64,000 bases of DNA from Virgisporangium aliadipatigenens (lineage in GTDB: Bacteria; Actinomycetota; Actinomycetes; Mycobacteriales; Micromonosporaceae), in NCBI RefSeq assembly GCF_016863615.1, contig NZ_BOPF01000022.1, positions 124,001 through 188,000 of the forward strand, in the 5' to 3' direction. Under the pieces are notes generated by a model, which was not told the origin of the DNA, searched no databases, and saw nothing but the letters and a program-made list of their open reading frames with translations. Of this stretch, positions 21,833-61,808 are shown one piece after another; positions within the stretch are counted from its first letter, which is position 1, and every line of letters begins with the position of its first letter. A program made the position numbers and the translations under genes.

Positions 21833-24022
21833 TCAGTCGCGCGAGTCGGCGAGGACGGTGGGCATGGTGGGCGTCGGTGCCGGCAGGATCGTCTCCCGCA
21901 GCCCGATCCGTGCGTGCAGCCACGCGAGCGGGCGGGGCGCCCACCAGTTCCGCCGGCCGAGCAGCACCATCGTTGCCGGCACGAGGAGGCAACGCACCAC
22001 CGTCGCGTCGATCAGCACGGCGACGGCCAGGCCCAGGCCGACCTGTTCGATCTCGCCCATCTCCGCGGTGGCGAAACAGCTGAACACGACGAGCATCAGC
22101 AGCGCCGCGGAGGTGATGATGCGTCCGGTGTGCTGCAGTCCCAGCCGGACGGCGGTGTGGCTGTCATGCCCGGCGTCGACGTATTCCTTGACCCTGCTGA
22201 GCAGGAACAGTTCGTAGTCCATCGACAGGCCGAAGGCGAACGCGAACACGACGATTACGATGAACGGCGACAGTCCGCCGACGGTGAGTGTGTGCAGCAC
22301 ATTTGCGCCGTGCCCGCGTTCGAAGACGAGCACCAGGACTCCGAGGGTTGCCCCGAGCGAGACCACGTTGGCCAGTACCGCTTTGACCGGCACCACCACC
22401 GATCCGGTCATGAGGAAGATGAGGACCAGCATCGCGAAGAGGGTCACGCCCAGCGCGGCGGGCAGCCCGGCGCGCATGGTGTCCAGAACGTCGACCAGGA
22501 CGGCCGCGTCGCCGCCGATCCAGGAGGGCCCGTTCGGCGGCCGGTCGGTCCGGATCCGGTCGACGAGGGCGCGGGCGGCCGCATCCTGCGCCGTGCCGCG
22601 CAGTGCCAGTTCCACGACGGCGACGTTGTCCACCGGGCGGGCCGGGCGGACCTCGGCCACCGCCGGGTCGCCGCGCCAGCGCGCGGCCCACTCGGTCAGT
22701 TCCGCCGGGTCGATGTCGGCCACCACGATCACCGTCGGCGTGGAGTGGGCGGCGAACCGGTTCGACTCCGCCCGCGCCACCTGGACCGGTTCGAGCCGGG
22801 ACGGCAGTACTTCCAGGTCGGGCAGCACCGGCGTGGCCGACAGCAACGGCAGCCCGGCGGCGAGCAGTCCGGCGACCGTCAGCAGCGCCACCGGCGCGGC
22901 GAAGCGCTGCACGATCCTGGCGAGGCCGGCGAAAAACCCGCCGTCTCCCTCGGAGCGCAGCGAGTGCTGCGGCCGGCGCTGTTTCGCCGGGCGGATCCGC
23001 GAACGGGCCAGGCCCAGCAGCGCGGCGGTGAGGGTGAGCGCCACCAGCATGGCGACCAGCGCGATCGACACGCCGGCGGCGCCCATCGCGTTCAGTTCCG
23101 AAAGGTCGAACAGCAGCAGCCCGGACAGGGCCACGGCCACCGTGAGCGCGCTGAACACGATCGTGCGTCCAGCGGTCGCCCAGGCCCGACCGAGCGCCAC
23201 CTCCGGCGTGAAGCCGTGACCGAGTTCCTCCCGGTAACGCGCGACCAGCAGCAGACCGTAATCGATGGACAGCCCGAGTCCCAGCAGCGTCACGACCGTG
23301 ACCGTGTTGCTGTCCAGGTCGGTCACGTAGGAGAAAGCGAGCAGGACCGGCATCGCGGCGAGCACCGAGGCGATCGCGGCGAGCACCGGCAGTCCGGCGG
23401 CTATCAGCCCGCCGAAGACGAAGACCAGCACCAGGAGCGTCAGCGGCAGGGACAGCAGTTCCGAGCGTTGGAGATCCTGCTCGGACAGGTCTCCGGCCTG
23501 CTCGTCACGGAGGTCGCTGCCACCGAGGCGGACCACCGCGTCCGGCTGGCCGGTCGCGCGCAGTTCACCGGCCAGGGCGCGCAGCCGGCTGCCCGCCGCG
23601 CTCATCGCGGCTTCCTCGGTGTCGTCGCTGCCCGGCGCGAGGCGCACGGTGACCAGCAGGGCCCGGCCGTCGTCGGCGATCAGGTTGCCCCGTTCCGGCG
23701 TCGTGTAGGGGAAGTCGACGCCGCGCACGTCGGGTCGGGCCGCAAGCTCCGCGGCGGCGGCCGTAACCTGCCGGCGGACGGCCTCGTCCCTCGGGTCCAC
23801 CCCGTCGACGAGCGCGGTCAACTCGCCCTCGTCGACCACGCCGAGCTGCCGGTACGCCTCGATCGACTCGAATCCGGCCGCGTCGTTCTCCGCCACCAGC
23901 CGGTCGAAGACCGGACCGGCCGCGAACCCGCCGCCGACGAGCACTCCGAGCGACAGCATCGCGACGATGAACCGGTGGCGGAAACACCACCGGCCCACCG
24001 TTGCGATCAGGCCTTCGGGCAT
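21833..24022 (-). CDS. MMPL-family lipid transporter
   Basis: 729 residues. ATG at 24022 follows GGGAGGG with good spacing. The protein has two repeats, each one membrane helix, an extracytoplasmic domain of 150-200 residues and a block of five more helices, giving about 12 helices as in RND/MMPL transporters. Typical motifs are the helix-4 segment GLGLSIDYGLLLVARYREEL in the first half and FGLSMDYELFLLSRVKEY in the second, with the conserved Asp-Tyr pairs of the proton relay. It is the last gene of the biosynthetic operon, 14 bases after the thioesterase gene. MMPL proteins in mycobacteria export polyketide lipids, so export of this pathway's lipid product is the likely role. Confidence 0.92.
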   Translation of the reverse strand: MPEGLIATVGRWCFRHRFIVAMLSLGVLVGGGFAAGPVFDRLVAENDAAGFESIEAYRQLGVVDEGELTALVDGVDPRDEAVRRQVTAAAAELAARPDVRGVDFPYTTPERGNLIADDGRALLVTVRLAPGSDDTEEAAMSAAGSRLRALAGELRATGQPDAVVRLGGSDLRDEQAGDLSEQDLQRSELLSLPLTLLVLVFVFGGLIAAGLPVLAAIASVLAAMPVLLAFSYVTDLDSNTVTVVTLLGLGLSIDYGLLLVARYREELGHGFTPEVALGRAWATAGRTIVFSALTVAVALSGLLLFDLSELNAMGAAGVSIALVAMLVALTLTAALLGLARSRIRPAKQRRPQHSLRSEGDGGFFAGLARIVQRFAAPVALLTVAGLLAAGLPLLSATPVLPDLEVLPSRLEPVQVARAESNRFAAHSTPTVIVVADIDPAELTEWAARWRGDPAVAEVRPARPVDNVAVVELALRGTAQDAAARALVDRIRTDRPPNGPSWIGGDAAVLVDVLDTMRAGLPAALGVTLFAMLVLIFLMTGSVVVPVKAVLANVVSLGATLGVLVLVFERGHGANVLHTLTVGGLSPFIVIVVFAFAFGLSMDYELFLLSRVKEYVDAGHDSHTAVRLGLQHTGRIITSAALLMLVVFSCFATAEMGEIEQVGLGLAVAVLIDATVVRCLLVPATMVLLGRRNWWAPRPLAWLHARIGLRETILPAPTPTMPTVLADSRD

Positions 24023-24036
24023 CGACCCTCCCGATG

Positions 24037-24798
24037 TCAACGCGTTACGGAACCGAGGCCGGCGGCCAGGTCGAGGCCGAGCATCGTCAGCATCGCCTCC
24101 CGGGCGTTCTGCGTGAAGAAATGTCCGCCGGGGAACGTCCGTTGCCGGAATTCGGCGGCGGTCTGCGACGACCACGCCGACAGTTCCGTGGCGTCGACCT
24201 TCGGGTCGTCGGCGCCGCCGTAGGCGCTCAACCGCACCGGCAACGGCGGCTCCGCGACGTACCGGTACGTCTCGTTCAGCTCCAGGTCGGCCCGCACCAG
24301 GGGAAGCGCGACGGCGAGCAGTTCGGGCGCGGCGCGCAGCGCGTCGGGAATGCCCCCGAGCGCGTGGAGCCGCTTCAGCAGGACGTCGTCGGGCAGGTCG
24401 TGCAGCGTCGGCCGCGGGTCGACCAGGTGCGGGGCGATCCGGCCGGAGACGACGAGGTGCGCCGGCGGCGGCGCGCCCTCCCGGCGCAGCGCCCGGGCCA
24501 GTTCGAACGCCACGATCGCGCCCATGCTGTGCCCGTACAGCGCGTACGGCCGGTCCAGGTACGGTTCGAGCACCGCGCGCACCCGCGGCACGAGAAGGTC
24601 GACCCGGCGAAACGGTTCCTCCCGGAAGCGGTCCTCCCTGCCCGGCAGCTGGACCGGGCACGACTCGATCCCGACGCGGGCCAGGGGCGCCGTCCACGGC
24701 CGGAAAAGGGCGGCACCGCCACCCGCGTGCGGGAAGCAGAACAGCGACAGCGGTGCCGCCCGGCTCGGCACCACCGGCAACCAACGTCCGGCGTTCAT
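24037..24798 (-). CDS. Type II thioesterase
   Basis: 253 residues, alpha/beta-hydrolase fold. The nucleophile elbow is GHSMG with Ser91; the oxyanion-side motif FPHAGGG is at 22-28; the catalytic His is His226 in FPGGHFF and the acidic residue is probably Asp197 or Asp198 in GGADDPKV. This is the stand-alone (type II) thioesterase family of PKS/NRPS clusters, which hydrolyses stalled or mis-primed acyl groups from carrier proteins. Because none of the three PKS proteins ends in a thioesterase domain, this enzyme may also release the final chain; that is inference. The ATG overlaps the upstream stop as ATGA. Confidence 0.93.
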   Translation of the reverse strand: MNAGRWLPVVPSRAAPLSLFCFPHAGGGAALFRPWTAPLARVGIESCPVQLPGREDRFREEPFRRVDLLVPRVRAVLEPYLDRPYALYGHSMGAIVAFELARALRREGAPPPAHLVVSGRIAPHLVDPRPTLHDLPDDVLLKRLHALGGIPDALRAAPELLAVALPLVRADLELNETYRYVAEPPLPVRLSAYGGADDPKVDATELSAWSSQTAAEFRQRTFPGGHFFTQNAREAMLTMLGLDLAAGLGSVTR

Positions 24799-25475
24799 CC
24801 GGCGACCCCCGTGGCGGTGGGCACGGCGCGGGCGCCGACCTCTTCCCCGACGATTTCGCGCAGTCGGCGCACCATCACCACGATCGAGCCGGCGAGCAGC
24901 GGCAGCACCACCGGCGCGTCCACCGCGACCCGCACCGCCAGGAACCCGTCGGTGTGCCAGAGCGCCAGGGCCCAGAGGCAGACAACGGCGCGCGCGGTGA
25001 AGTAGGTGCCCCACACCACGGTCAGCCACAGGGTGAGCCGCCGGACGCGAGGCAGTTCGTAGACCGCGTCGGGGAGCACCACCATCTCGCTGGCGAGCAC
25101 CCGACCCAACGGCCGCCGGGTCGCGCACGAGGCGTAGCAGCTCAATCCCTGGACCAGGTCCATCAGCACCGCCGGCAGGAAGAACAGGGCAGCGCTGTGG
25201 AACACGATCCCGATCACCACGCTCAGCGTCAGCTCGCCGAGCGAGATCCAGGCCAGCAGGCCCGGCCGGGACTTACGCCGTTCCCACAAAAAGAGGCCGA
25301 GGGACAGCGACGCCGCGGCGGCGATACCACCGACCAGGCCGCCCAGGGCGCGGCCGGCGAGGAACGCCATCGGCGGACCGAGACCGTTGAGCAGGATGCG
25401 CGGCACGCCGCCGACCAGCACTCGGCGGGCGTCCAGTCCGTCGAGCAGCTTGGCGGCGACCGCGAGGTCGGTCAC
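24795..25475 (-). CDS. VC0807-like integral membrane protein
   Basis: 226 residues, GTG start overlapping the FkbH-type gene's stop as GTGA. About five or six hydrophobic segments are seen, for example FLAGRALGGLVGGIAAAASL, ELTLSVVIGIVFHSAALFFL and VDAPVVLPLLAGSIVVMV. The pattern ILLNGLGPPMAFLAGR followed by LFLWERRKSRPGLL resembles VC0807/DUF3159-type membrane proteins of unknown function. Its place inside the chain of overlapping biosynthetic genes argues for a dedicated role in the pathway, such as product handling at the membrane or helping the MMPL exporter. No catalytic motif is seen. Confidence 0.75.
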   Translation of the reverse strand: MTDLAVAAKLLDGLDARRVLVGGVPRILLNGLGPPMAFLAGRALGGLVGGIAAAASLSLGLFLWERRKSRPGLLAWISLGELTLSVVIGIVFHSAALFFLPAVLMDLVQGLSCYASCATRRPLGRVLASEMVVLPDAVYELPRVRRLTLWLTVVWGTYFTARAVVCLWALALWHTDGFLAVRVAVDAPVVLPLLAGSIVVMVRRLREIVGEEVGARAVPTATGVAG

Positions 25476-26512
25476 GACCGGGCCCCGTACTCCACGGTCA
25501 GGTATGCCGGCGGTTCCGGCACGCGGTCGAGGTCGGCCCGCAGCACCACGCTCTGACCTTCCCGGCGCACCTCCCGGAATCCGGCGAAGCGGTAGGTGAT
25601 GAGCATCAGCCGGTTGCGGCCGGTTTCCACGAGATCCGCCTCCAGCTGCCGGCCGGCGTCGCGGGCCAGTCCCAGGATGTGTCCGAGCAGGACGTTTCCG
25701 ACTCCGCGCGACATCACCCGGCAGGACATCAGCAGCAGCTTCAGCCGCCAGGCCTCCCCCGCGGTCTCCACCAGCGCCAGGCCGATCTTGCCGTAGCCGC
25801 CGAACCGGTCGGTCAGACCGGCGACGAGCAACAGGTGATCCGGCGAGGTGCGGTACCGGTCGAGATCCGCGTAGGAGTAGGTGACGCCGGTGGAGTTGAG
25901 CTGGTTGGTGCGCACGGTCAGTTCCTCGGCGCGGCGCAGGTCCTCCTCGGCGGCCGGGGCGATGGTCATCCGCATGTCCAATGTGGACAGGAACGCCTCG
26001 TTGGCGCCGTCGTACTCCTCTTCGGCCCGGTCGCGTTCGATCGCGCTGCGGTACATCTCGCGACGCAGCCGGGACTCGTCGGTGATGAACCGGGGCGTGA
26101 ACTCCGGGGTCGCCAACCGGGCCCCGATCTCGGCGTCCGGCACGCACAGCACCTGCGGCAGCGCGAAGCCCACCTCGGCCAGTTCGAACGGCTGGTCGTC
26201 GACGAAGGCGATCGTGTCGAGGCCGATGTTCACCAGCTTCGCGACCGCGGAGATCGAGTGCGACTTGTCGTTCCAGGAGATCTGCGGGTAGATGAAGTAG
26301 TCGGCGACGCCGAAGTCGGCCAGCTGGCGCATCGCGACGTCGTGGTCGTTGCGGCTGGCGATCGAGTTGAGGATGCCGCGCTCGTCGAGACGGCGCACCA
26401 CCTCGACCATCTCCGGACGCAGCCGCACCCGCTCGTCCTCCAGCAGGATGCCGTCCCAGAGGGTGTTGTCGAGGTCCCACACCACGCACTTGATCCGGCC
26501 CTGGGCGCTCAT
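25472..26512 (-). CDS. FkbH-type HAD protein (glyceryl transfer to ACP)
   Basis: 346 residues. The HAD nucleophile motif is WDLDNTLWDG with Asp13 and Asp15 (DxDxT), followed by the Ser/Lys motifs (SIASRNDHD, WNDKSHSI) and the acidic motif FVDDQPFE. The C-terminal half (about 170-346) is the acyltransferase-like domain typical of FkbH proteins (RTNQLNSTG, VMSRGVGNVLLGHI). In the established pathway, FkbH-type enzymes take 1,3-bisphosphoglycerate, remove phosphate and load the glyceryl group on a free ACP. All four glycerate-unit genes (dehydrogenase, ACP, acyl-CoA dehydrogenase, this gene) are adjacent and nearly overlapping, so the same job is expected here. The start overlaps the previous stop as ATGA. 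Confidence 0.92.
   Translation of the reverse strand: MSAQGRIKCVVWDLDNTLWDGILLEDERVRLRPEMVEVVRRLDERGILNSIASRNDHDVAMRQLADFGVADYFIYPQISWNDKSHSISAVAKLVNIGLDTIAFVDDQPFELAEVGFALPQVLCVPDAEIGARLATPEFTPRFITDESRLRREMYRSAIERDRAEEEYDGANEAFLSTLDMRMTIAPAAEEDLRRAEELTVRTNQLNSTGVTYSYADLDRYRTSPDHLLLVAGLTDRFGGYGKIGLALVETAGEAWRLKLLLMSCRVMSRGVGNVLLGHILGLARDAGRQLEADLVETGRNRLMLITYRFAGFREVRREGQSVVLRADLDRVPEPPAYLTVEYGARS
25976..25988. repeat. 13-bp palindromic motif, copy 2
   Basis: GTCCAATGTGGAC inside the FkbH-type gene, again read as Ser-Thr-Leu-Asp. Confidence 0.6.
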
Positions 26513-27645
26513 CGCGCACCGCCCGAGGCGTTCGCCGCGGGGACCCGCCGGTAGGCGTGTTCGGCGATGGTGACCTGCTGGATCTGCGTACTGCCTTCGA
26601 TGATCTCCATGACCTTCGCGTCCCGGAAGTAGCGGTTGACCGGATGTCCGTCGGCGCAGCCGAGTGCCCCGTGCAGTTGCACGGCGTCGGTCGCCGCGCG
26701 CATCGCCGCCGTCGAGGCGTGATACTTGGCGACCCAGGTCGCGTTGATGGTCTCGGGGTCGCCGGCGTCCTTGAGCCGGGCCGCCCGGCTGACCAGTTCC
26801 CGGGCCGCGTAGAGGTCGGTGAGCATGTCGCTGACCTTCGCCCGGACCAGTTGGTGGTCGCGCAACAGGCCGCCGCCCTGAACCCGGCCGGCGGTGTGCG
26901 CCACCGTGGCGTCCAGGCAGGCGTCGATGATGCCGCAGCTGCCGGCCGCCACGCTGAGCCGGCCGAGGTCCAGCGCGCCGGTGGCGACCAGCATCCCGGC
27001 ACCGGCCGCACCGACCAGGGCGGTGCCGGGCACCCGGCAACCGGTGAGGCGCACCTCGGCGAGCATGCTCGCGCGGGTGCCGAGCACGTTACTGATCGGG
27101 CTGCGGCTCACCCCCGGGTTCCGCGCGTCGACGAGGAACGCCGCCGGCCCGCGCGGCGTGCGGGCGAAGACCAGGAAGAGGTCCGCGACCTGCCCGCCGG
27201 TGATCCACCGCTTGACGCCGTCGAGCACGAAGTCGGACCCGTCGGGGGTGGCCGTCGTGGCCACCATCGTGGCGTCGCTGCCGGCCTGCGGTTCGGTGAG
27301 GCAGAACGCCATCCGCGCCGCGCCGGTGACGACGTCCGGCAGCCACTGTTCCCGGGCCGCGGCGCTGCCCCAGCGGTACAGCGCGTAGGCGCCCATCGTG
27401 TGCACCGTCAGCAGGCTGCGCAGCGACGAGCAGCCGCGGCCGATCTCCTCGTGCAGTGCGGCCAGGGTGCGCATGTCGAACCCGGTGCCACCGGCCGAGG
27501 CCGGCACCACCGCACCCCACCATCCGTGTGCGCCGACCGCCTTGTAAACGTCGTCGGGAATCCGTTCGTCGCGCTCGAACTCGTCGGCCCGCGGCGCCAC
27601 GGTCTCGTCGACGAACGCGCGGAACGCCGAGCGTTCCGGCGTCAT
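26509..27645 (-). CDS. Acyl-CoA dehydrogenase-like oxidase (FkbI type)
   Basis: 378 residues with the normal acyl-CoA dehydrogenase layout: N-terminal helical domain, central beta domain (FCLTEPQAGSDATMV, KRWITGGQVADLFLV) that binds FAD, and a C-terminal helical domain (GALGCADGHPVNRYFRDAKV, IIEGSTQIQQ). In glycerate-derived extender-unit cassettes the FkbI-type enzyme works with an FkbK-type dehydrogenase to oxidise glyceryl-ACP via tartronate semialdehyde-ACP to hydroxymalonyl-ACP. Gene order here is dehydrogenase, ACP, this enzyme, FkbH, matching that cassette. It overlaps the ACP gene's stop and the FkbH start as ATGA. Confidence 0.92.
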   Translation of the reverse strand: MTPERSAFRAFVDETVAPRADEFERDERIPDDVYKAVGAHGWWGAVVPASAGGTGFDMRTLAALHEEIGRGCSSLRSLLTVHTMGAYALYRWGSAAAREQWLPDVVTGAARMAFCLTEPQAGSDATMVATTATPDGSDFVLDGVKRWITGGQVADLFLVFARTPRGPAAFLVDARNPGVSRSPISNVLGTRASMLAEVRLTGCRVPGTALVGAAGAGMLVATGALDLGRLSVAAGSCGIIDACLDATVAHTAGRVQGGGLLRDHQLVRAKVSDMLTDLYAARELVSRAARLKDAGDPETINATWVAKYHASTAAMRAATDAVQLHGALGCADGHPVNRYFRDAKVMEIIEGSTQIQQVTIAEHAYRRVPAANASGGAR

Positions 27646-27902
27646 CCGGTGCCGCCCGCCACCGTGGCCGACTGGCGCGCCACCAGTGCGGCGATCGCCT
27701 CCACGCTGCGGAAGTTCGCCATCTCCAGTTCCTCGTTGGGGACCTGGAAGCCGAAGGTGTTCTCCACGAAGATCACCAGCTCCATGGCGAAGAGGGAGGT
27801 CGCCACGCCGATCGCGAAGATGTCGTCGGTGTCCGAGATGGACACCGAAGGAAACCGGCCGCAGATGAACTGCCTGATCGTCGCCCGCGTATCGTCTGAC
27901 AT
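27642..27902 (-). CDS. Stand-alone acyl carrier protein (FkbJ type)
   Basis: 86 residues. ATG at 27902 is 8 bases after GGAGG. The phosphopantetheine-attachment serine is Ser36 in IGVATSLFAMELV; the usual Asp before the serine is Thr, as in other extender-unit ACPs that end their motif in TSLFA. A second acidic helix (NEELEMANFRSVEAIAALV) is the docking helix II-III region. In this pathway the free ACP carries the glyceryl group while it is oxidised to a malonyl-type extender. It lies 23 bases after the dehydrogenase gene and overlaps the acyl-CoA dehydrogenase gene. Confidence 0.92.
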   Translation of the reverse strand: MSDDTRATIRQFICGRFPSVSISDTDDIFAIGVATSLFAMELVIFVENTFGFQVPNEELEMANFRSVEAIAALVARQSATVAGGTG

Positions 27903-27925
27903 GTATCGGTCCTCCGGGTGAATGG

Positions 27926-28780
27926 TCAGCTGTAGGTGTAGAAGCCCTGCCCGGACTTGCGCCCGTACAGGCCGGCGTCGACCATCTTGCGCAGCAGTGG
28001 GCACGGCCGGTATTTGCTGTCGTTGAAGCTCTCGTACAGGACCTCGACGCTGTGCAGGATCGTGTCGAGGCCGATCAGGTCCGCGGTCTCCAGCGGGCCC
28101 ATCGGGTGGCCGAAGCACGACTTGAACACCCGGTCGACGTCAGCGGCCGGTGCGACGCCGTCCTGCACCAGATACACCGCCTCGTTGACGGTCAGCATCA
28201 GCACCCGGTTGGAGACGAAGCCGGGCGCGTCCGCGACGACGATCCCTTCCTTGCCCATGCGGGCGAGAAGCTCCTGCGCGGTCCGCACGGTCTCGTCGGA
28301 GGTGTGCCAGCCGCGAATCACCTCCACCGCCGGCTTCATCGGCACCGGGTTCATGAAGTGCATGCCCAGCACCCGTTCCGGCCGGGTGGTGAGGCTCGCC
28401 AGCCGGGTGATGGAGATCGCCGAGGTGTTGGCCGCGAAGACCACGCCGGGTGCGCAGATCGCGTCCAGGCGCGGGTAGATCGCGCTCTTGAGGTCCCACT
28501 TCTCGGTGATGTTCTCGACGACGAAATCGACGTCACCGAGTTCGGTGTAGTCCGTGGTGTAGTGGATCAGGTCGAGGTTCGGCTCCGGGCTGCGCGCACC
28601 GTTGGCGCCGGCCGGGGAGAGCAGGCGGCTCATCCGCGCGCCGCGCTGGATCTGCTGCCGCGCCCGTTCGAGGGTCGCGTCGTCGACGTCGACGAGCACC
28701 GATTCCAGGCCGACGGCGGCCAAGTTCTGCGCCACGCCGGTGCCCATCACGCCGGCACCGATCACCCCGATCCGCTTCAC
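27926..28780 (-). CDS. 3-hydroxyacyl-CoA dehydrogenase-like (FkbK type)
   Basis: 284 residues from GTG at 28780, which overlaps the PKS3 stop as GTGA. The NAD-binding motif GVIGAGVMGTGVAQ is at the N-terminus and the C-terminal helical domain starts near NRVLMLTVNEA. The central LGMHFMNPVPMKPAVEVI is the signature of 3-hydroxyacyl-CoA/3-hydroxybutyryl-CoA dehydrogenases. In glycerate-unit cassettes the homologue oxidises glyceryl-ACP to the aldehyde level. An FkbG-type O-methyltransferase, which would turn hydroxymalonyl-ACP into methoxymalonyl-ACP, is not present anywhere in the window, so the predicted extender is hydroxymalonyl-ACP. Confidence 0.92.
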   Translation of the reverse strand: MKRIGVIGAGVMGTGVAQNLAAVGLESVLVDVDDATLERARQQIQRGARMSRLLSPAGANGARSPEPNLDLIHYTTDYTELGDVDFVVENITEKWDLKSAIYPRLDAICAPGVVFAANTSAISITRLASLTTRPERVLGMHFMNPVPMKPAVEVIRGWHTSDETVRTAQELLARMGKEGIVVADAPGFVSNRVLMLTVNEAVYLVQDGVAPAADVDRVFKSCFGHPMGPLETADLIGLDTILHSVEVLYESFNDSKYRPCPLLRKMVDAGLYGRKSGQGFYTYS

Positions 28781-31700
28781 CGGGCACCCGCCTGGATCCG
28801 TTCGGCCATCTGGCGCACGGTCGGGCACTCGCCCAGCACCGCCAGCGGCACGTTCACCCCGAGCGCCGCCCGGATCCGTCCGATCACCTGTACCGCCATC
28901 AACGAATGCCCACCCAGTTCGAAGAAGTTGTCCAACACGCCCACCTCCACCAGGCCCATGACTTCTTGCCAGACCTCGGCGATCTTCGTTTCCACCTCGT
29001 CGGCCGGGGGCACGTACGCCGTGGCCAGCGCCGGACGCGGATGCCGTTCACCGCCGCCGACCGCCGTGTCGCCGACGACCCAGTCCGACAACCTCGTGTG
29101 CAGGTCGCCGGTTGAGTTGACCAGCAGGGGCAGCGCGCCGACGGCGGTCAGCGCGCGCTCGAAAGCGGCGCAGCCCTCCGCGTAGGTCGAGGAGTACGGC
29201 GAGACCGTGGCGGCGCCGCCGAGTTGCTCCCCCCGCTCGATGCTGTTCTGCCAGGCGTCCCAGTCGACGGTGATGAGCCGGCGCCGGCCCCCGCCGGCCA
29301 TCGCGACCACCAGCGCGTCCAACGCGGCGTTGGCGGCGGCGTAGGCACCGTGTCCGATCCCGCCGAGCACCAGCGACAGCGAAGACATCGACAGGCAGAA
29401 GTCCAGCCGGTCGAGGTCGATTTCCTGGGCGAGTGCCGCCATCCCGTGGACCTTGCCGCGGAAGTGCTCGTCGCACGCCTGGCGGGCGAGGTCATGCGTG
29501 ATGCCGAAGTACTCCTCGCCGCTGAGGCCGGCGCCGTGGATGACCCCGTTCAGCGGGCCGAAGCGCGCCGTCGCCTCGGCCACGGCGGCCGCCACCCGGG
29601 CGCGGTCGGCGACGTCGACGGCCAGCACCAGCACCTGTGCCCCGGCCGCCTCCAGGGCGCGGACCCGACGGATCCGCCCGGCCGTGCGGGCGTCCGCGGA
29701 CGGGTCGGCGAGGACCGCGTCCCACTCCTGCACCGGTGGCAGGCCGGTGCGGTTGAACAGCACCAGCCTGGCCCGGTACCGGACGGCCAGGTGCTCGGCG
29801 AGCGCCAGCGGCACCTGGCCGAGCCCGCCGGTGATCAAGTACACCCCGCCCTCGCGCAGCCCGGCGGAGAGCGGGCCGTCGGTGGGATCCGGTTCGGGGA
29901 GCCGCTGCTGGACGTAGTCCAACGCCCACCGGGCACCGCCCCGGTACGCCACGGCGGTCGGGTCGTCCTCCAGCACGTCGGCCAGCAGCGCGTCCAGCGT
30001 GTCGCTGGAGAGCGTGGCGTCCACGTCCACGGTGCGGCAGCTGATCCCCGGGTTCTCCTGCGGCGCCACCCGGCACAGCGCCGCTACGGCCGCGTCGGCC
30101 GGTGACAGCGGGTCGGCCGGGTGCACCGCGACCCCGCCCCGGGTGACCGCCACGATGCGCACCTGCTCCGATCCGGGCTCGTCGGCGAGCGCGCCGAGCA
30201 GCCGCCGGATGCCGTAGAAGCCCGCGTCGAGGCGTTCGTCGAAGTCGGCGAGCGCCTCCGCCGGCTGCCCGCTCGGGGTGCCGGCGAGCCCGCGCAGGTA
30301 GACGATCGTGCGCGGTCGGGGGCGCATCCACTCCGCGGCGAGTTCGGCGTCCAGCGCCGTTCCGGGTGCCCACTCGGCCGCGCGGACCGTGGCGCCGGCC
30401 GCCTCCAACCGGTCGGCGACCGCCTTGGTCGTCGGCGAGTCGGTGCCGAGCACCAGCCACGGGCCGGCCTCGACCAAGCGGCGGCCGAACCCGGGGGTGG
30501 TCAGCCGCGGCGCCTGGCGCCAGGCGGGAACGTAGAACCAGTCCGCCACGTCGTCGTAGCGTTCGCGGGAGCGCCGCCCACCGGTGCCGCGCGGCACCGG
30601 ATCGATCCAGCAGGTCCGCCGCTCGAACGGATAGGTGGGCAGCCGCACCCGCCGCCGCGGCCCGCGGTACAGCTCCGTCCACTGTGGACTGACGCCGGCC
30701 AGCCAGAGCCGGCCCAGCAGTTCCCGCAGGGCGCGCGACGCGTCCCCGCCCGCGTGCGGGTCGGGCAGCGCGGCCAGCCGCAGCGCCGAGTCGTTCGCGC
30801 CGCCCGGGTCGGTCGCCCGCAGCAGCCGGCCGTCGCCCAGTTCCACGATGACGCTGTGCGGGTCCAGCGCGCCGAGGTCGGCGTCCTGCGGCCGGGAGGA
30901 GGCGCCATCGGCGAGCGCGGCCAGCGGCAGCGTTCCCGCCAGGACGCCGGCCACCACGGCCCCGGTGCCGACCCCGACGGTGTTCGCCGGTGTGATCCCC
31001 CAGCCGTGCAGGAGACGGCCGGCGGCGTACCCGACGAGCGCCTCGAAGGCCGGCGAGCCGAACGGGTCGGCGGCGCCGATCGCGGTCGCCGCGGCGTCGA
31101 ACGCCTCCCGGAACAGCGGTTCGGTGGCGCACAGCGCACGCGCGTCCGCCGCGGTGACCGGGATTCGCTCGGGCACGACCAGCGTGACCCGGCGGTCGCG
31201 GTGGTCCTGGTCGGCCGTCCAGGTCCGGCCCGCCGCGTCGTCGAGGGCGGCGACGGCCTCCGACACGCTCGCCGCCGTCAGCACCCGCCGGTGGTTGAAG
31301 CCGGTGCGCCCGGTCTGCAACGTGAACGCCACGTCCGCCAGGTCGAGGTCCGGGCGTTCGGCCAGGAACGACGAGAGGTTGCCGGTGGCCGCCTCCAGCG
31401 CCGCCGGGGTCCGCGCCGACAGCACGAGCACCTGCGCGCGCCCGCTCTCGTCGGTGACGTCCAGCGCGGCCGGCGCCTCGGCCACCACCGCCGCGGCGTT
31501 CGTGCCGCCCAGGCCGAACGAGTCGATCACGGCCCGCCGCCCGCCGTTGACCTCCGGCCACGGCACCAGTTCGGTGTTGACCCGGAACAGGTCGGCGGGC
31601 ATTCCCGGGTTGGGCGAGGTGAAGTTGACCTGCGGCAACAGGGTGCGGTGCTTGAGCATCAGCGCGGTGCGGATCAGCCCGGTGACGCCGGAGGCGCGAT

Positions 31701-32766
31701 CCACGTGGCCGAGGTTGGACTTGACCGAACCGATGGTGCACGGCGGACCGCTCCGGTCCCGGGCGTCGAACGCCTTGCTGAGCGCCTCCAGTTCGATGGC
31801 GTCGCCGAGCAGCGTGCCGGTGCCGTGCGCCTCGACGTAGGAGATGTCGTCCGGACCCACCCCGGCGACGGCCATCGCCTCGGTGATCACCTCACGCTGG
31901 CCGCGCAACCCGGGTGCGGCGTACCCGGCGCGGGCGATCCCGTCGTTGTTCGACGCGGTACCGAGGATCACCGCGTAGATCTGGTCGCGGTCGCGCAACG
32001 CCTCGGAGGTCCGCTTGAGCAGCACCACCCCGACGCCGTTGCTGAACACGCCGCCCTTGGCGGAGGCGTCCAGCGCCCGGCACACGCCGTCGCGGGCCGC
32101 GATCCCGCCGTCCTCGTACACGTAGCCGGAGGCCTGCGGCGTGGTGATCGACACGCCGCCGGCCAGCATCATGTCCGTCTCGTAGCTGAGCAGGCTCTGG
32201 CACGCCAGATGCACGGCGAGCATCGAGGTGGAGCAGGAGGTCTGCACCGCCATGCTCGGGCCGCGCAGGTCCATCTTGTAACTGACCAATGTGGACAGTC
32301 CGTCGCGGTCGTTGCGGATCGCGATCGGCAGGTGCCCGACCTCGGCGATCAGCTCGTCGTGCCCGGCGATGTTGTTCTGCAGGTACGTGGGGAAGTTGCA
32401 GCCGGAGATGACACCGACCACACCCGGCACGTTGCGCGGGTCGTAGCCGGCGTTCTCCACCGCCTCCCAGGAACACTCCAGGAACAGCCGCTGCTGCGGA
32501 TCGGTGTAGGCCGCTTCGCGCGGGCTGAAGCCGAAGAAGGCCGCGTCCCACTGGTCGACGTCCGGCACGGTCGCGCCGACGGCGACGTAGTCCGGGTGCC
32601 GTCGCACCTGCGGGTCGACGGCCGCGAGTTCGTCCTCGGTCAGCGGCCGTACCGCGCCCCGGCCCTCGCGCAGGTTGCGCCACAGCGCCCCCACGTCGGG
32701 CGCGTCCGGGAACCGCCCGGCCAGCCCGACGATCGCGATCGACTCGGGAGCCTGCTCGCCGTTCAT
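28777..32766 (-). CDS. PKS3: KS - ruined AT - KR - ACP
   Basis: 1329 residues, ATG after AGGAGGAC, overlapping PKS2 as ATGA. The KS (about 8-430) is intact: Cys in VQTSCSTSML near 176, VEAHGTGT and KSNLGHVDRASG. After it, the AT region is only about 113 residues long between its normal end points (about 270 in the sister modules). The active-site GYSxGEY reads GVGTGAV, and the half containing the HAFH-type motif is missing. The KR (Rossmann motif TGGLGQVPLA near 975; SMSSLSL, GAYAAANAALD) looks active and an ACP ends the protein (GGHSLMAVQ, Ser near 1288). There is no thioesterase or reductase. How its ACP is charged is the main open point; the hydroxymalonyl-ACP genes follow directly. Confidence 0.93.
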   Translation of the reverse strand: MNGEQAPESIAIVGLAGRFPDAPDVGALWRNLREGRGAVRPLTEDELAAVDPQVRRHPDYVAVGATVPDVDQWDAAFFGFSPREAAYTDPQQRLFLECSWEAVENAGYDPRNVPGVVGVISGCNFPTYLQNNIAGHDELIAEVGHLPIAIRNDRDGLSTLVSYKMDLRGPSMAVQTSCSTSMLAVHLACQSLLSYETDMMLAGGVSITTPQASGYVYEDGGIAARDGVCRALDASAKGGVFSNGVGVVLLKRTSEALRDRDQIYAVILGTASNNDGIARAGYAAPGLRGQREVITEAMAVAGVGPDDISYVEAHGTGTLLGDAIELEALSKAFDARDRSGPPCTIGSVKSNLGHVDRASGVTGLIRTALMLKHRTLLPQVNFTSPNPGMPADLFRVNTELVPWPEVNGGRRAVIDSFGLGGTNAAAVVAEAPAALDVTDESGRAQVLVLSARTPAALEAATGNLSSFLAERPDLDLADVAFTLQTGRTGFNHRRVLTAASVSEAVAALDDAAGRTWTADQDHRDRRVTLVVPERIPVTAADARALCATEPLFREAFDAAATAIGAADPFGSPAFEALVGYAAGRLLHGWGITPANTVGVGTGAVVAGVLAGTLPLAALADGASSRPQDADLGALDPHSVIVELGDGRLLRATDPGGANDSALRLAALPDPHAGGDASRALRELLGRLWLAGVSPQWTELYRGPRRRVRLPTYPFERRTCWIDPVPRGTGGRRSRERYDDVADWFYVPAWRQAPRLTTPGFGRRLVEAGPWLVLGTDSPTTKAVADRLEAAGATVRAAEWAPGTALDAELAAEWMRPRPRTIVYLRGLAGTPSGQPAEALADFDERLDAGFYGIRRLLGALADEPGSEQVRIVAVTRGGVAVHPADPLSPADAAVAALCRVAPQENPGISCRTVDVDATLSSDTLDALLADVLEDDPTAVAYRGGARWALDYVQQRLPEPDPTDGPLSAGLREGGVYLITGGLGQVPLALAEHLAVRYRARLVLFNRTGLPPVQEWDAVLADPSADARTAGRIRRVRALEAAGAQVLVLAVDVADRARVAAAVAEATARFGPLNGVIHGAGLSGEEYFGITHDLARQACDEHFRGKVHGMAALAQEIDLDRLDFCLSMSSLSLVLGGIGHGAYAAANAALDALVVAMAGGGRRRLITVDWDAWQNSIERGEQLGGAATVSPYSSTYAEGCAAFERALTAVGALPLLVNSTGDLHTRLSDWVVGDTAVGGGERHPRPALATAYVPPADEVETKIAEVWQEVMGLVEVGVLDNFFELGGHSLMAVQVIGRIRAALGVNVPLAVLGECPTVRQMAERIQAGAR
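30677..30689. repeat. 13-bp palindromic motif, copy 3
   Basis: GTCCACTGTGGAC inside PKS3, read in another frame (Pro-Gln-Trp-Thr). Confidence 0.6.
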
Positions 32767-35700
32767 GATGTCCTCCTCGTACGCAGGTTCCGGCGCCGCA
32801 ACTCGCCCCGGGCGCGCCGGTCGTCGACCGGCTCCGCCTGGGCATCGCTGACCAGTTGGGCCAGCGCATGAACGGTCGGGGCGAGATAGAGAGCGTGTGG
32901 TGTCAACGCGTCGTGTCGTAGCTCGTGGCGTAGCCGTGCGATCAGGTCGACGCCGAGCAGCGAGTTGCCGCCCAGTTCGAAGAAGTTGTCGTGGATGCCG
33001 ACCCGTTCGATGCCGAGCGCCTCGGCCCACAGCTTCTCGACCACCCGCTCGGTGTCGGTGCCCGGCGCCACGTAGGAGGTGCCGAGTTCCGGGCGGGCGT
33101 GCCGGGACGCGAGTTCCTGGCTCAGCGACAGGACGGTGTCGATGGTGAACGTGCGGCTCAGGTCGGCCAGGACCCGGAAGTCCTGGGTGGAGACGATGAC
33201 CTGCGGCTCGCCGTGCGATCCGGCCTGCAGCAGCGTGTGCAGCGCCTGCCAGCCCTCCTCGAAGGTGATCCCGAAGTGGCGGCGGTTGTCGTCGAAGAAC
33301 TGCCGGACCGCGGGGGCGTAGCCGGACAGGCCCGCGCCCCAGGCGTTCCACCGCCACTCGCCCCAGTTGACGCTGCGCACCGGCAGGCCGTCGGCGCCGG
33401 CCCGTTGCGCGACCGCGTCGAGGTAGGCGTTGGCGGCGCAGTAGTCGACCTGGCCCGGTCCGCCGCCGGTGATCGACGAGATCGAGGAGAACAGCACGAC
33501 GAAGTCGGGCCGGTCGGCGGCGAGACGCTCCAGCAGTACCCGCGTTCCGGTCACCTTGGGCCCGAAGGCGATCGCGGCGTTGTCGGTCGTCTTGAACTGC
33601 AGCAGGCCCATTCCCGGGGCACCGGCGAGGTGGAACACCCCGTCGATGCGGCCGAACTGCTGCCGGACGGCGTCCAGCGCGGTGCCGACGGCGTCGGCGT
33701 CGGCAACGTCGGCGGCGTACACGCGCACCTGGGCACCGTCGCCGGCGAGGTCGCTGACGACCTGCACGCGCCGGCGCAGTTCCGGGTCGGCCACCGGGTC
33801 GCCCAGCACCTGCGGCCAGTGCTCCGGTTCGGGCAGCGCGGTCCGCCCGAGCAGGGCGATCCGCGCACCCGGGGCGGTGGCGGCGATCCCGCGGGCCACC
33901 GCCGCGCCGATCCCGCCCAGTCCGCCGGTGAGCACGTACACGCCGTCGGGGCGCAGCGCTGGTGTGCCGGCCGGTGCCGGCGCCGCGATCCGGCGGATCT
34001 CGGGCAGCCAGCGGTGCCGTCCGCGCCAGGCCACGGTGACGTCGGCCGGGTCCGCGGACAGTTCGCCGAGGAGTCGTCCCGCCACCGCCCGCGCCGCTCC
34101 GGTTCCGTTCGGGGGAACGACGTCGAGTTGGCGCACCGCCAGGCGGGGCAGTTCCAGCGGGATCACCCGGCAGGGGCCGGCACTGGTGGCCGCGGCCGGA
34201 CGCACCTCGTCGGTGCCGGTCACGTCGACGGCCCCGGCGGTGACGACCAGTACGTCGGCGGCGGTCACCCCCGACGCGCCGAGCGCCTGCGCCGTCCACA
34301 GTGGACTGAAGTAGGCGCGGTCGAGCAGCCACTGTTCGGCCGCCTCGGGATCGAGCTCCGGCGGCGTCCGGCCCACCGACCACAGGTGCACCACCCCGCG
34401 CGGGGCGGGCACCGACGCGAGCAGCCGGGCGTGGTCGTCGCGGTCGCCGGAACGGATCGTGAACCCGTGCGCGTGCTCGGCGAACGCGACCCCCGCCTCG
34501 ACCGTGACCGTCGTGGCGCCCCGCTCGGCCAGTGCCGCCACGACGGCGTCGGTGAGGTCGCCGCCGTCGGCGAAGACGAGCCAGGTGCCGGTGAGGTCGG
34601 CCGGCGGCCCGGCCGGTACCGCGGCGCGCCGCCACGACGGCACGAAGAACCAGCGCTCCGGACTCTCCCGCGGCAGCGACGTGAGCATCTCCCGCGGGTT
34701 GCCGCTGAGTACCGGCGGCGCGTCGTCGCCCGGGCCGCTCGGCAGCGCCCGGCCCGCCACCCAGTACCGCTCGCGCTGGAACGGGTACCCGGGCAGCGGA
34801 ACCCGTCGGCGTCCGGCTCCGTCGTGGTGTGCGGCCCAGTCCACCGGCACCCCGAGCAGCCACAGCCGGCCCAGTGCGGCGGTGAGGCCGGCGACCGCGG
34901 AGGCCGGTTCGTGGCGTCCGGGCAGGGTCGGCACGAGCAGTCCGCCGCGCTGCGGGGTACACGCCGGGTGCTGGCGGGCGAACGCCCCCAGCGACTGCCC
35001 CGGGCCGACCTCGACCAGCACCCGCTCCGGTTCGGCGAGCAACCGGCCGAGAACGTCGGCGAAGCGCACGGTGCCGCACATGTGCCGGGCCCAGTAGCCG
35101 GGGTCGACCGCCTCCTCGGGGCGGATCCAGTCGCCGGTCACGTTGGAGACGTAGGGAACGCGCGGCGGATGCAGGGTGATCTGCGCGGCGATCCACGCGG
35201 TGAGCCGCTCGGCGACCGGGACCAGTGCCCGGGAGTGGAACGCGTGCGTGGTGGCGAGCCGGCGGCAGGCGACCTCCCGGGCGGCGAGCCGCCGTTCCAG
35301 GTCGGCGACGGCCTCGGCCGGACCGGCCACGACCGACATGCCCGGGGCGTTGACCGCGGCGACGTCGAGCGCCTCGCCGATCAGCGGGGCGAGGCGCTCC
35401 GGCGCCATCGGGACCGCCAGCATCGCCCCGGCCGGCAGCGCGTCGATGAGCGTCGCCCGGTAGGCGACGAGTTTCAGCGCGTCCGGCAGGCTGAGCACGC
35501 CGGCCAGGGTCGCCGCGACGTACTCGCCGAGGCTGTAGCCGGCCAGGCTCTCCGGGACCGCGCCCCACGACATCAGCAGCCGGGCCACCGCGTACTCGAC
35601 GACGAAGACCGTGGGCTGGGCGAGGGCGGTGGCGGTGACGTCGTCCGCGGGCCGGTCGGCGGCGTGCGTCGTACCCGCCCGGCCCAGCATGGCGCGCAGG

Positions 35701-38700
35701 TCCATCGCCGGGACGGCGGCGGCCGGTTCGGTCAGCGCCGTCCTGATCCGCGGGCCCAGCAGCGGTTCCAGCACCGCGAGGCACTCGTCGACGACCGCCC
35801 GGTACACCGGCTCCGACCCGTAGAGGTCCACGGCCATCCCCGGGTACTGCTCGCCGACGCCGGCGAAGACCATCGCCAGCGGCCGGTTGTCGACCGGATC
35901 GTGCCGGGTGAGCACCCGCGCCGGATCGTCGCCGGACAGGGCGCGCACCGCCTCGTCCACGGTGGAACAGGCGACCGTGCGCCGGTGGGCGAAGCGGCGG
36001 CGCCCCACCTGGAGCGTGTACGCCACGTCGGCCAGCGCCTCGTCGTCGACGCCGCGCAGGTGTGCGGCGAGGTTCGCGCCGGCCTCCTCCAGCGCCTCGA
36101 CGGTGCGTGCCGACAGCACCAGCGACTGCGGCGTGCGGCCGGGCCGGCCCGGTTCGGTGGCGGGTGGCTCCTCCACGATGACGTGGACGTTGGTGCCGCC
36201 CATGCCGAGGGAGTTGATGCCGGCCCGGAGCGGTGCCCCCGGCGCCGGCTGCCACTGCGCCAGCCGGGTGTTGACGTGGAACGGGCCGTTGGCGAAGTCG
36301 ATCTCGGGGTTCGGCTCGGTGTAGTGCAGGCTCGGCGGCAGCTGCCGGTGCCGCAGCGCGAGCACGGTCTTGATCAGTCCGGAGACCCCGGCCGCCCGGT
36401 CCAGGTGGCCGACGTTCGTCTTCACCGAACCGATCGGGCAGGAACGCTCCGGCGGCCGCGTCCCGTAGGCCCGGCTCAACGCCAGCATCTCGATCGGGTC
36501 ACCGAGTTCGGTCGCCGTGCCGTGGGCCTCGACGTAGGAGACCGTGTCCGGCTCGACCCGCGCCGCCGCCAGTGCCGCAGCGATCACCTGGGCCTGCCCA
36601 CCGACGCTGGGCGCGGTGAAGCCCACCTTCAGCGCGCCGTCGTTGTTGACCGCCGACCCGCGGATCACCGCGTGCACCGTGTCCCCGTCGGCGAGCGCGT
36701 CGGTGAGCCGCTTGAGCACCACCACGCCGACCCCGTCGCCGAACATCGAACCGCGCGCCCGCGCGTCGAAGGTGCGCACGTGGCCGTCCGGCGACTCCAT
36801 CCCGCCTGGGGTGTAACGGTGCCCGACCCGGTCGGGTACCCGGACCGACACGCCACCGGCGAGGGCCAGTTCGCACTCCCCGGCCCGCAGGCTCTGCGCC
36901 GCCAGGTGCACGGCGACGAGCGAGGTCGAGCAGAACGTCTGCACCGCCATGCTCGGCCCGGTCAGGTTGAGCTTGTAGGAGACGGTGGTGGCGAGCGCGT
37001 CCTTGTCGTTGCCGATCACCGCCTGGTAGTCGTTGACCTGGTCGGTGAGGTGGCCGGCGCGGTACAGGCCGGCCAGGTAGGTGCTGATGTTGGTGCCGGC
37101 GAAGACCCCGACGGGGGCCGCGGCGTCTCCGGCGTAACCGGAGTTCTCCAGCGCGTGCCACGCGCATTCGAGGAAGATCCGGTGCTGCGGGTCGGTCAGT
37201 TCGGCCTCGCGGGGGCTGTAGCCGAAGAAGCCCGCGTCGAACAGGTCGATGCCGTCGAGGACCGGCCGGGCCGGCACGTACGCCGGATCGTGCACCTGCT
37301 CGGCGGGTACACCGGCGGCGATCAGCTCGTCCGGGGTGAACCGGGCGATCGACTCGACGCCGTCGCGCAGGTTCGCCCAGAACCGTTCGACGTCGGCGGC
37401 GCCGGGGAACCGACCGGCCATGCCGACCACCGCGATCAGGTCGTCGGCGCCGCCCTCGGGGGCCGGGCGGCGCGGCGCGGCCGCCGGCGCGCTTTCCTGG
37501 CCGGTGGACGCGCCCGCGAGATGCCTCGCCAGCGCGGCGACCGTGGGCGCCTCGAACAGCACGAGGGTGGGCACCGCGACGTCGAACTCGTCGGTGACGC
37601 GGCGCAGCAGTTGCAGGCCGATCAGCGAGGTGCCGCCGAGGTCGAAGAAGTTGTCGTTGACGCCGACCGACCCGACGCCGAGCACGTCCTGCCACAGCGC
37701 GGTGAGCCGGCGCTCGATGTCGCTCGTCGCGGGCACGTACGCCACCGGCAACGCCGGACGCTCATGGGCCGGCGGACCGGCCTCGGCCGGCGATGCCGTG
37801 CCCCATTGCCGGATCCGCTCGTCCAGGTCGCCGACGGAGACCACCACCTGCGGCAGGGCGCAGCGCAGCACCCGGTCGAAGACGACCAGCCCCTCGGCGA
37901 CGCTCATCGAGTGCGCGGACATCGTCGCGCCGAGCGGCCCGGTCGCCGGCTCGCCGGTGCGCCAGGTGTCCCAGTTGACGGTGAGCCACGGCCGGCCGCG
38001 TGCGGCCCGCGCCCGCACGTGCGCGTCGAGCAGTGCGTTCGCGGCGGCGTACGCGCCGAAGCCGAGGCCGCCGAGCACGGAACTGATCGAGGACTGGACG
38101 ACGCAGAAGTCGATCGGCGCGTCGCCGAGTGCCTCCTCGACCGCGAGGATCGCCTCCACCTTGGCGGCCAGGTGCGCCGCGACGTCCGCCTCGGACATGG
38201 TCTCGATCGGGCCGAACGCCTCGGGCTCGGTCACCCCGGCGCAGTGCACCACGCCGTCGACGCTGCCGAACAGGGCGCGGGCCTGCGCGACGACCCGGGC
38301 CATCGCACCGGGCGTGGTGGCGTCGGCGGCGAGCACGAGGACCCGCGCTCCGGCCTCCTCCAGTGCCGTGACCGCCCGGATCCGCGTCGCGAGCACACCG
38401 TCCCCGGCCCGCAGCTGTGGCCACTGCGCGCGGGGCGGCAACCCGCTGCGTCCGGTGAGGACGAGCCGCGGCGCGGTGACTGTCGCCGCGATGTGTCCGG
38501 CGATCGCGAGCCCGATCGCGCCCAACCCACCGGTGATCAGGTAGGTGCCGCCGTCGCGCAGCGGGTCCGCCCGGTGCGGCAGGTTCGCCACCGGCCGGAA
38601 CCACCGGACGCGGCGCACGCCGTCGCGATAGGCCACCGTCTCCGTGCCCGGCCGGCCCAGTTCGGCCGCCAGGTGTGCCGCGCCGGCCGCCGGGTCGGTG

Positions 38701-48603: not shown

Positions 48604-48757
48604 GGGCCCGCCCGTTGGATGAAGCAGCCAAGGCCTTTCGACCGGAACCCGAACAGCATCTGTGCGGACCGTCACAGACACAACGTCCCCGTCTGGGTAC
48701 CACTGCGCGGGCCGGCGTCCCCGTTGCTACGACAGAAGCCCGTGACCTTGACATTTG

Positions 48758-51746: not shown

Positions 51747-51931
51747 GCTGCGGCAACGCGGAGTTAGGCTCGGTTTCCCCAGGTACGAAAGGACGATCAC
51801 GCGACCCTAGTCATCCGGGGAGGGCGGGCGTTGCTACTAGAAGAGCGCCGGATCGCCGACGCTCACCGACGTAGTTGGGTATCAGCGGAGCCGCTGGGCG
51901 CGATGGGAAGAAGAAGGGTGAGTCGGGACGA

Positions 51932-54900: not shown

Positions 54901-55204
54901 GGATCACACCGAAGTCAAGCACCTGCTCGACCTGATCCGGGCCGGATGCCACAACCGTGACCAACCCGTCTGGGAAGTGTGCCGCGTTTTCAACGCCGTC
55001 ACCCGCGACGGGGCCGAGATGGGTCACTATAGTCACCTGCTCACGGAGGCGATCCGCTTCATGATCGGTGCCAACGAGCAACGCGACATCGACAGTCTTT
55101 TCAGCCCCGGCCACACCACCGCGCTGGTGCAGACCATTGCCGGGCTCGACGACTTCGAGCTTATCGCCTTCCTCGCCATCGTGGAGGAGCCTGTCGATGA
55201 GTGA
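51932..55204 (+). CDS. SNF2-family helicase of a type III-like defence operon
   Basis: 1090 residues from GTG at 51932; earlier in-frame starts would add a short basic tail. Residues 1-200 resemble the N-terminal region of PLD-associated bacterial helicases (LRIAASTFSIFAFEALKAEL), but no HKD motif is visible. Helicase motifs: I DSVGLGKTFTAL near 276, II DESHNF near 363, III LSATPVNN, and VI QRFGRIDRIGS near 824, so it is an SF2 Swi2/Snf2 (HepA-like) translocase. Codon 15 is TTA, rare in high-GC actinomycetes and read by the bldA tRNA in Streptomyces. It is the first gene of the four-gene operon and overlaps the DUF4391 gene by 8 bases. Role in defence is inferred from its partners. Confidence 0.88.
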   Translation: MHIIDNLNEPLGDDLKESIRPGSKLRIAASTFSIFAFEALKAELQQLDALHFIFTAPSFTAETATSKPLPEKRQFFIPRDKGSDAALYGTEFEIRLRNKLTQRAIARECAEWVRQKVTFRSNRTGAPMQSFAIVDDTATYAPLQGFTTADLGYERGPAVSNMVHKIDNLLFTQQYLQLFNQIWYNADQLDDVTDAVREHIASVYAENSPQRVYFLILYNLFSEFLNDISEDVLPNDLTGYQDTEVWKALFNFQKDAATGVINKLETYNGCILADSVGLGKTFTALAVIKYYELRNKTVLVLAPKKLAENWTNYNSNYTTNIFAKDRFNYDVLAHTDLSRDAGESLGKRLDLINWGNYDLVVIDESHNFRNADYVQERETRYQRLMRKVIREGVKTKVLMLSATPVNNRFNDLRNQLALAYEGDSAQLAVKLNIRTSIEEVFRQAQRVFNEWSDLQPEDRTTDAILARLDFDFFELLDAVTIARSRKHIQAFYDTAHVGAFPERMKPKSLRPPLTDLADSPTFNEIFEQLQLLTLAVYTPLAYIFPSRRDKYEQLYGAGSGQNYMGGQTANLGAASREQGIRKLMTVNLLKRLESSVEAFRLTLKRLESTVAEAVEAVTNHAANMADVVSAFADMDADDDDFEFPASGTVGRKVQIDLADIDVESWNRDLVNDGKVIEQLLASISGITPEHDSKLGALRDLIAGKFQQPLNPGNRKVLIFSAFADTAEYLYKNIAPGLKQRGYDSALVIGQGNPSTTLGKGYGFQQTLTLFSPRSKQRHLVMPKDSSEIDVLIGTDCISEGQNLQDCDFLVNYDIHWNPVRIIQRFGRIDRIGSTNNRIQLVNFWPDISLDEYINLKERVENRMVIADLAATADDNMLTQEASDAAFRKEQLRKLQDEVIELEDVRTGVSITDLGLNDFRMDLLGYIKEYGDLAGTPKGLHAVVPADRDTGLKPGALFVLRNINADEQLNRGNRLHPYYLVYLDDQGQIITDHTEVKHLLDLIRAGCHNRDQPVWEVCRVFNAVTRDGAEMGHYSHLLTEAIRFMIGANEQRDIDSLFSPGHTTALVQTIAGLDDFELIAFLAIVEEPVDE

Positions 55205-57817: not shown

Positions 57818-57821
57818 CCCG

Positions 57822-60905: not shown

Positions 60906-61144
60906 GGGACAGTAAGCCTTTTCCGACCAGCAGCATCACACCTCGGCACCGGCGGGAAGCCGGCGTCGCAGCTCGGCGAGCTGGATCAAGGTTTCAGCCG
61001 CCAGGGCATTACACCGAGTCGAGTTGGTGACCTCCAAACCGGGCACGACAGCGAGGCGACGGGCGCGTGTGGTCTTGCTGGAGCTGCCGCAACCGATGAT
61101 GGGCGATCCGTTGACGGTCGAGCACTGACGCACGACGCTGCTGC

Positions 61145-61612: not shown

Positions 61613-61627
61613 CCGGAGGAACTAATC

Positions 61628-61714: not shown

Positions 61715-61808
61715 TGTGCGTGGTGCGGGCAGATTCTGTCCTGCGGCGATTGAGCCGGCCGGCCGCCGGTCATGGTGCCGCCGTCCCTCGAACCTCACCG
61801 CCGCGCCG

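Follow-up and report, generated by a model that had tools for sequence, protein, structure and literature searches.

The stretch analysed here, 64,000 nucleotides of the Virgisporangium aliadipatigenens genome (NZ_BOPF01000022.1, positions 124,001 to 188,000; hereafter the window), carries a polyketide synthase (PKS) operon, one protein of which, PKS3, has lost its acyltransferase (AT). PKS3 (28777..32766, 1329 aa; all operon features lie on the minus strand) is a module made of ketosynthase (KS), truncated AT, ketoreductase (KR) and acyl carrier protein (ACP). Pfam places the KS at residues 8-256 and 264-382 (31477..32745), the KR at 974-1173 (29248..29847) and the ACP at 1261-1324 (28795..28986), and the residue check finds the KS Cys/His/Lys/His, the KR Ser/Tyr/Asn and the ACP Ser all in place. 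An earlier, sequence-only reading that had called these three domains intact is therefore confirmed, and so is its description of the former GxSxG site as GVGTGAV (residues 598-604, 30955..30975), where alignment to the GYSxGEY of the sister ATs puts a Gly in the position of the active-site Ser.

What is left of the AT? The remnant covers 30697..31230. It has lost the small subdomain that holds the catalytic His (HAFH in the alignment with the sister ATs); the post-AT linker with its LPTYPF motif is kept (30562..30669). From the KS-AT linker to the post-AT linker PKS3 has 217 aa, where the operon's three intact modules have 378, 397 and 401 aa. The truncation was thus correctly spotted, but the proposed length of about 113 residues was too short, as the homologous remnant measures ~130-180 aa depending on where the borders are set. 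Acyl_transf_1 was not found in PKS3 by the Pfam scan, and a genome-wide PF00698 scan passes over the protein as well. The remnant structure (one model made, 12 rows; five models with an average predicted local distance difference test, pLDDT, of 61 to 75) resembles the AT linkers together with a portion of the AT core. PKS3 is thus a module with KS, KR and ACP and no working AT, a feature it shares with the modules of trans-AT PKSs. Could a sequencing or assembly error have deleted part of a normal AT, as the sequence-only reading had allowed? The genome is a draft in 112 contigs, but the frame is intact, the Ser is replaced and not merely cut away, and the ortholog from Goodfellowiella coeruleoviolacea shares the lesion (GAGRG at the equivalent site) at 45% identity in the remnant and 65% in the KS. 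An error is hardly credible.

The operon begins upstream of PKS3 with a fatty acyl-AMP ligase-like protein (46828..48681, start codon uncertain) that likely activates the starter. It is followed by PKS1 (41897..46831), an ACP-KS-AT-KR-ACP protein whose AT (43988..44962) has GYSLGEY at 44597-44617, and by PKS2 (32763..41900), which has two KS-AT-KR-ACP modules. The first PKS2 AT (39450..40319) has GYSVGEY at 40020-40040, and its best sequence match in the PDB is ZmaA-AT; the second (34953..35882) has GYSLGEY at 35520-35540. Directly after PKS3 come, as the earlier reading had it, an FkbK-type 3-hydroxyacyl dehydrogenase (27926..28780), an FkbJ-type free ACP (27642..27902), an FkbI-type acyl dehydrogenase (26509..27645) and FkbH (25472..26512), predicted to form glyceryl-ACP and passing the TIGR01686 cut-off. 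These four genes make up the set predicted to build hydroxymalonyl-ACP, and they share one operon with PKS3, neighbours overlapping by 4 bases except for a short gap between FkbK and FkbJ. Further on lie a DUF3159/VC0807-like membrane protein (24795..25475; below the NCBIfam cut-off, above that of Pfam, and found at the same place in Actinophytocola clusters), a discrete thioesterase (TE; 24037..24798) and an MMPL-family transporter (21833..23998). No O-methyltransferase is among the genes at 21833-28780.

How would a module without an AT receive its extender? Three options had been put forward: an AT encoded elsewhere, a neighbouring AT that is borrowed, or a KS that picks up the extender from the free ACP directly. 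The PF00698 scan (E 0.001) finds six AT domains in the genome. Three belong to the operon and two to a contig 18 PKS; the sixth is a FabD-like AT, which sits ~2 kb from a FabF-like KS and is the only AT in a short frame. Hence the genome search for discrete AT genes that had been proposed as a check yields only this FabD-like protein; neither a dedicated trans-AT in the genome nor, as had been noted before, a discrete AT gene in the window was found by the scan, which covers the window. By the same scan there is no discrete AT serving the line, and three of the four modules have ATs of their own, unlike a trans-AT PKS, where most or all modules are AT-less. Trans loading of AT-less modules is common, and in two relatives (G589 and f663; handles of this kind are our labels for genomes and loci) a discrete GYSLGEY AT accompanies such modules, so that loading of PKS3 by the FabD-like protein or by a contig 18 PKS AT, perhaps with malonate, deserves mention. 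We consider it improbable, as the scan outside the operon gives, apart from this one FabD-like AT, just the two modular ATs that belong to another cluster, the GYS pattern is confined to the operon in this genome, and the hydroxymalonyl genes lie directly 3' of PKS3. Elsewhere in the genome (G000:C35:69919-71439) an extra KS plus linker occupies a 571-aa open frame that is 37% identical to PKS3, with no AT match there.

The sister ATs point to a different source. In all three, Tyr replaces the His of GHSxG, as expected of ATs that use ACP-bound extenders: in Table 2 of PMC4207774, ZmaA-AT (hydroxymalonyl-ACP) and ZmaF (aminomalonyl-ACP) have GYSxG and the CoA-type ATs have GHSxG. Is the motif tied to the Fkb genes? 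The pattern GYSxGEY[V/A]AA occurs 19 times, spread over 15 of the 354 family genomes searched, and 17 of these 19 matches are in loci with FkbK-J-I genes. The control pattern GHSxGEY[V/A]AA has 56 matches in 42 of 121 of these genomes, two of them within 20 kb of a listed FkbH match, both weak (G606, G049); the control was scored by distance to FkbH matches and not by full annotation, which lessens its weight for our reading. A tree of 75 ATs (drawn from 78 AT rows, 3 of which were omitted) groups the 37 GYS ATs from FkbK-J-I loci, without exception, in a single clade with support 98/98. This clade takes in the three window ATs, those of Goodfellowiella, both GYS ATs of a butyrolactol-like S. 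cattleyicolor cluster and the discrete ATs of G589, G695 and f663. Because the operon ATs carry GYSxG and fall in this one clade, and because the genome scan turned up no dedicated trans-AT, PKS3 is most likely loaded in trans by one of its sister ATs, and borrowing from a neighbour becomes the best supported of the three options.

Is the lesion peculiar to this strain? An FkbH search of the 354 family genomes gives 90 with a match at E 1e-30. Among 15 loci fetched from the 17 best matches outside the own genome (G720 and G667 were left out), five hold a PKS3-like AT-less KS-KR-ACP protein, and f663 has a KS-KR protein with a deleted AT beside its discrete AT. Scanning named genomes left 80 loci (23 annotated, the rest judged by match length only). 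In 14 of them the match to the PKS3 region leaves no space for an AT; two of the 14 had been fetched already. With the S. cattleyicolor locus added, and with L099 and L100, duplicates of f728 and f797, counted once, there are 18 distinct AT-less loci of the PKS3 type besides the window, namely Goodfellowiella and 17 more. Within the stretch seen, 16 of the 18 have FkbK-J-I-H genes and 15 a GYSxG AT; L091 and L097 run into contig ends, and in L096 the fetched stretch stops within the AT. Two other queries gave little: a single PKS3 stretch searched against genome contigs found no relative, and the remnant at E 1e-15 matched 2 of 396 phylum genomes, the own one and one whose PKS matches span parts only. 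Across 22 AT-less modules (window, 18 loci and three mid-chain modules), the AT active-site GxSxG is gone in all, with one row showing a chance GTSAG elsewhere; the KS Cys/His/Lys/His, KR Ser and ACP Ser are kept in all 22, and the KR Tyr/Asn in 21. Judged from these alignments, the AT loss of PKS3 is old and shared across genera rather than fresh. A single origin for the AT-less KSs of the several clusters was considered and rejected, the KS tree of 23 rows being unresolved.

This conservation bears on the third option, in which the PKS3 KS condenses the chain directly with hydroxymalonyl-FkbJ, or through a KS-FkbJ-ACP relay, with no AT in that extension step. FkbJ genes do accompany AT-less modules, and there is no AT in cis. 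However, the chain would end up on FkbJ and the in-cis ACP would be dispensable, whereas the Ser of that ACP is retained in every one of the 22 modules, and a GYSxG AT is seen in most of the other loci. We therefore hold it very unlikely that the KS draws directly on the free ACP.

The relatives offer further observations. G589 (L045-L046) and G695 (L086) combine FkbK-J-I genes with a discrete GYSxGEY AT and, replacing FkbH, what reads as a seryl-tRNA-synthetase-like protein, a set that looks like an aminomalonyl-ACP pathway; G589 also encodes a KS-truncated AT-ACP protein. In f718 (L055-L056), f728 (L061), f800 (L063-L064), L094 and L098 the PKS3-like AT-less modules run in the other orientation from FkbK-J-I-H and have an adenylation gene no more than ~10 kb away; they are perhaps early rather than terminal. 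Large nonribosomal peptide synthetase clusters of G718, G665, G735 and G752 (L035-L042) have a conserved KS-truncated AT-ACP protein of 814-827 aa with no AT match in the 40 kb covered, and truncated-AT KS proteins also occur in G049, G590, G055, G064, G056 and G689.

Is an AT-less module of this kind productive at all? The published butyrolactol A cluster of Streptomyces TP-A0882 speaks to this. It runs from a two-module PKS (Orf10-17) through Orf10-18 to FkbK, ACP, FkbI, FkbH and TE (PMC5355916), and Orf10-18 (1,169 aa) is listed as KS, dehydratase (DH), KR and ACP, with no AT (PMC5355916, PMC5932044). The domain table shows 11 extension modules (PMC5932044). By labelling, six units come from acetate and one from propionate; four further pairs, C1-C8, derive from glucose independently of acetate and were assigned to hydroxymalonyl-ACP (PMC5355916, PMC5932044). 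No discrete AT is among the listed Orfs 10-8 to 10-33 (PMC5355916). On our own count and a colinear reading of these tables, C1-C8 are the work of the last four modules, of which two are listed without an AT. Because four hydroxymalonyl units fall to four modules of which two are AT-less, AT-less modules of the butyrolactol kind would elongate with hydroxymalonyl. A cluster in S. cattleyicolor matches the butyrolactol A cluster in order and gene sizes and has the same AT-less pattern: the mid module reads GHGVG for GHSxG, the terminal AT is gone altogether, and the two modules between have GYSVGEF and GYSLGEY. One might still suppose that PKS3 does not elongate, as a pass-through or dead module, with the line ending after PKS2, since its AT and the catalytic residues of that AT are gone. 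Against this, KS, KR and ACP have kept their catalytic residues across genera, and the butyrolactol count requires elongation by the AT-less modules of that line; we regard a silent PKS3 as unlikely. The two AT-less hydroxymalonyl modules of butyrolactol, standing beside only two with ATs, also favour borrowing. Was the loading logic new, as had been suggested? That claim is weakened, given that AT-less modules were already present in a published cluster whose labelling supports hydroxymalonyl incorporation. How they are loaded is not discussed in the main text of PMC5355916 or in the passages of PMC5932044 consulted, and the open-licence literature searched yielded no discussion of AT-less ACP-extender modules as a class within cis-AT lines.

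Taken together, we think it likely, though short of assured, that PKS3 functions as an elongation module in a butyrolactol-type polyol line, that its own AT disappeared long ago, and that sister ATs load it with hydroxymalonyl in trans. FkbH would place a glyceryl unit on FkbJ, and FkbK and FkbI would oxidise it to hydroxymalonyl-FkbJ. The PKS1 and PKS2 ATs, of the ACP-extender type by sequence and tree, could then transfer hydroxymalonyl from FkbJ to their own ACPs and, in trans, to the ACP of PKS3, after which the KS, KR and ACP of PKS3 would act normally. If all four KR-bearing modules use hydroxymalonyl, they would extend the ligase-activated fatty acid by eight contiguous oxygenated carbons, and the product would be a lipid, probably a fatty chain ending in a run of hydroxyl groups. 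Release may occur through the discrete thioesterase or by lactonisation, and export through the MMPL protein. ACP-bound-extender modules in cis-AT lines would thus repeatedly be without an AT, with sister ATs of one clade appearing to serve them. This would make the operon a tractable system for AT sharing between modules, useful for PKS engineering, and GYSxGEY/F near FkbK-J-I could be a genome-mining marker for contiguous-polyol compounds.

Several points weigh against this reading. The AT specificity proposed rests on motif, tree and gene neighbourhood. ZmaA-AT falls just outside the 98/98 clade, and for two of the 19 GYS matches (G630, on a 6.2-kb contig, and G073) the stretch available shows no Fkb genes and the tree gives no kinship with that clade. 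In the window ATs the third residue of RXR is still Arg, and their HAFH, HAYH and HALH motifs are malonyl-like, whereas ZmaA-AT has MCM and GAAH. Many of the compared loci were fetched via FkbH or PKS3-like queries, and only the GYSxGEY[V/A]AA scan is unbiased for the link between AT and Fkb genes. One of the 18 relatives (f011) carries a discrete AT of 486 aa with GHSHGET, and the genome of the window is split into 112 contigs. For butyrolactol, the authors' table predicts malonyl for both Orf10-17 ATs, contrary to their own labelling (PMC5932044). The proposed comparison of the remnant with intact ATs counts partly in favour: the AT linkers and part of the core were recognised, the first two Foldseek matches are ZmaA-AT (4qbu) and OzmQ KS1 (4oqj), and 4oqj is also the best sequence match. 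In that comparison, though, the score of DEBS module 1 equals that of ZmaA-AT, and the fold therefore gives no means of telling ACP-type ATs apart. The GYSLGEY ATs of G073 (L088) and G630 (L085) lie far from the Fkb-linked clade, in KS-AT-KR-ACP proteins; as far as these sequences tell, the GYS motif by itself does not establish that an AT is of the ACP type. The RXR motifs of the window ATs (SYR, ACR and AWR) have a non-basic first residue and a third Arg, as do some GHS ATs; RXR was rejected as a marker of ACP use, several GHSIGEY ATs likewise lacking the first basic residue.

Two other regions of the window stand apart from the PKS. Adjoining the cluster, 51875-63526 (plus strand) has the look of a mobile restriction or defence island, encoding an SNF2-like helicase, a DUF4391 protein, an N6/N4 DNA methylase, a type III restriction-like protein with an endonuclease domain and then a tyrosine integrase. 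On the other side, a single protein (16043-20980, minus strand) combines Ser/Thr kinase, AAA_16 ATPase, GAF and GGDEF domains.

How does the operon compare with known systems? Among the closest published lines is that of butyrolactol A, which likewise has a two-module PKS, an AT-less terminal PKS and FkbK/ACP/FkbI/FkbH/TE-type genes in the same order, interrupted in the window by the DUF3159 gene between FkbH and the thioesterase. PKS3 belongs with the AT-less hydroxymalonyl modules of that cluster, in a variant line that would start from an activated fatty acid. Butyrolactol starts with an AT/ACP loader and DH-bearing polyene modules, and its first hydroxymalonyl module, in mid-chain, is AT-less too; the window has instead an acyl-AMP ligase and ACP start, an AT in PKS1, the MMPL transporter and the DUF3159 protein. 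The AT remnant of PKS3 is also longer than that of its S. cattleyicolor homolog. The Goodfellowiella coeruleoviolacea DSM 43935 cluster (L103, L172, L173) shares both the lesion and the core order (acyl-AMP ligase, PKS1, PKS2, PKS3, FkbK-J-I-H) but, in the stretch seen, has an ABC-transporter ATP-binding-like gene after FkbH instead of DUF3159, TE and MMPL. Zwittermicin offers GYSxG ATs that take ACP-bound hydroxymalonyl or aminomalonyl, ZmaA-AT and ZmaF (PMC4207774), the latter a discrete AT (PMC6164871); the window ATs differ in standing in cis in sister modules and in their RXR and YASH motifs, and their function is predicted from sequence. In oxazolomycin, OzmQ KS1 (4oqj) is followed, as in PKS3, by a truncated AT-like stretch and a post-AT linker, but methoxymalonyl-ACP is loaded there by a discrete AT, OzmC (PMC6164871), whereas the scan of the PKS3 genome found no such dedicated enzyme.

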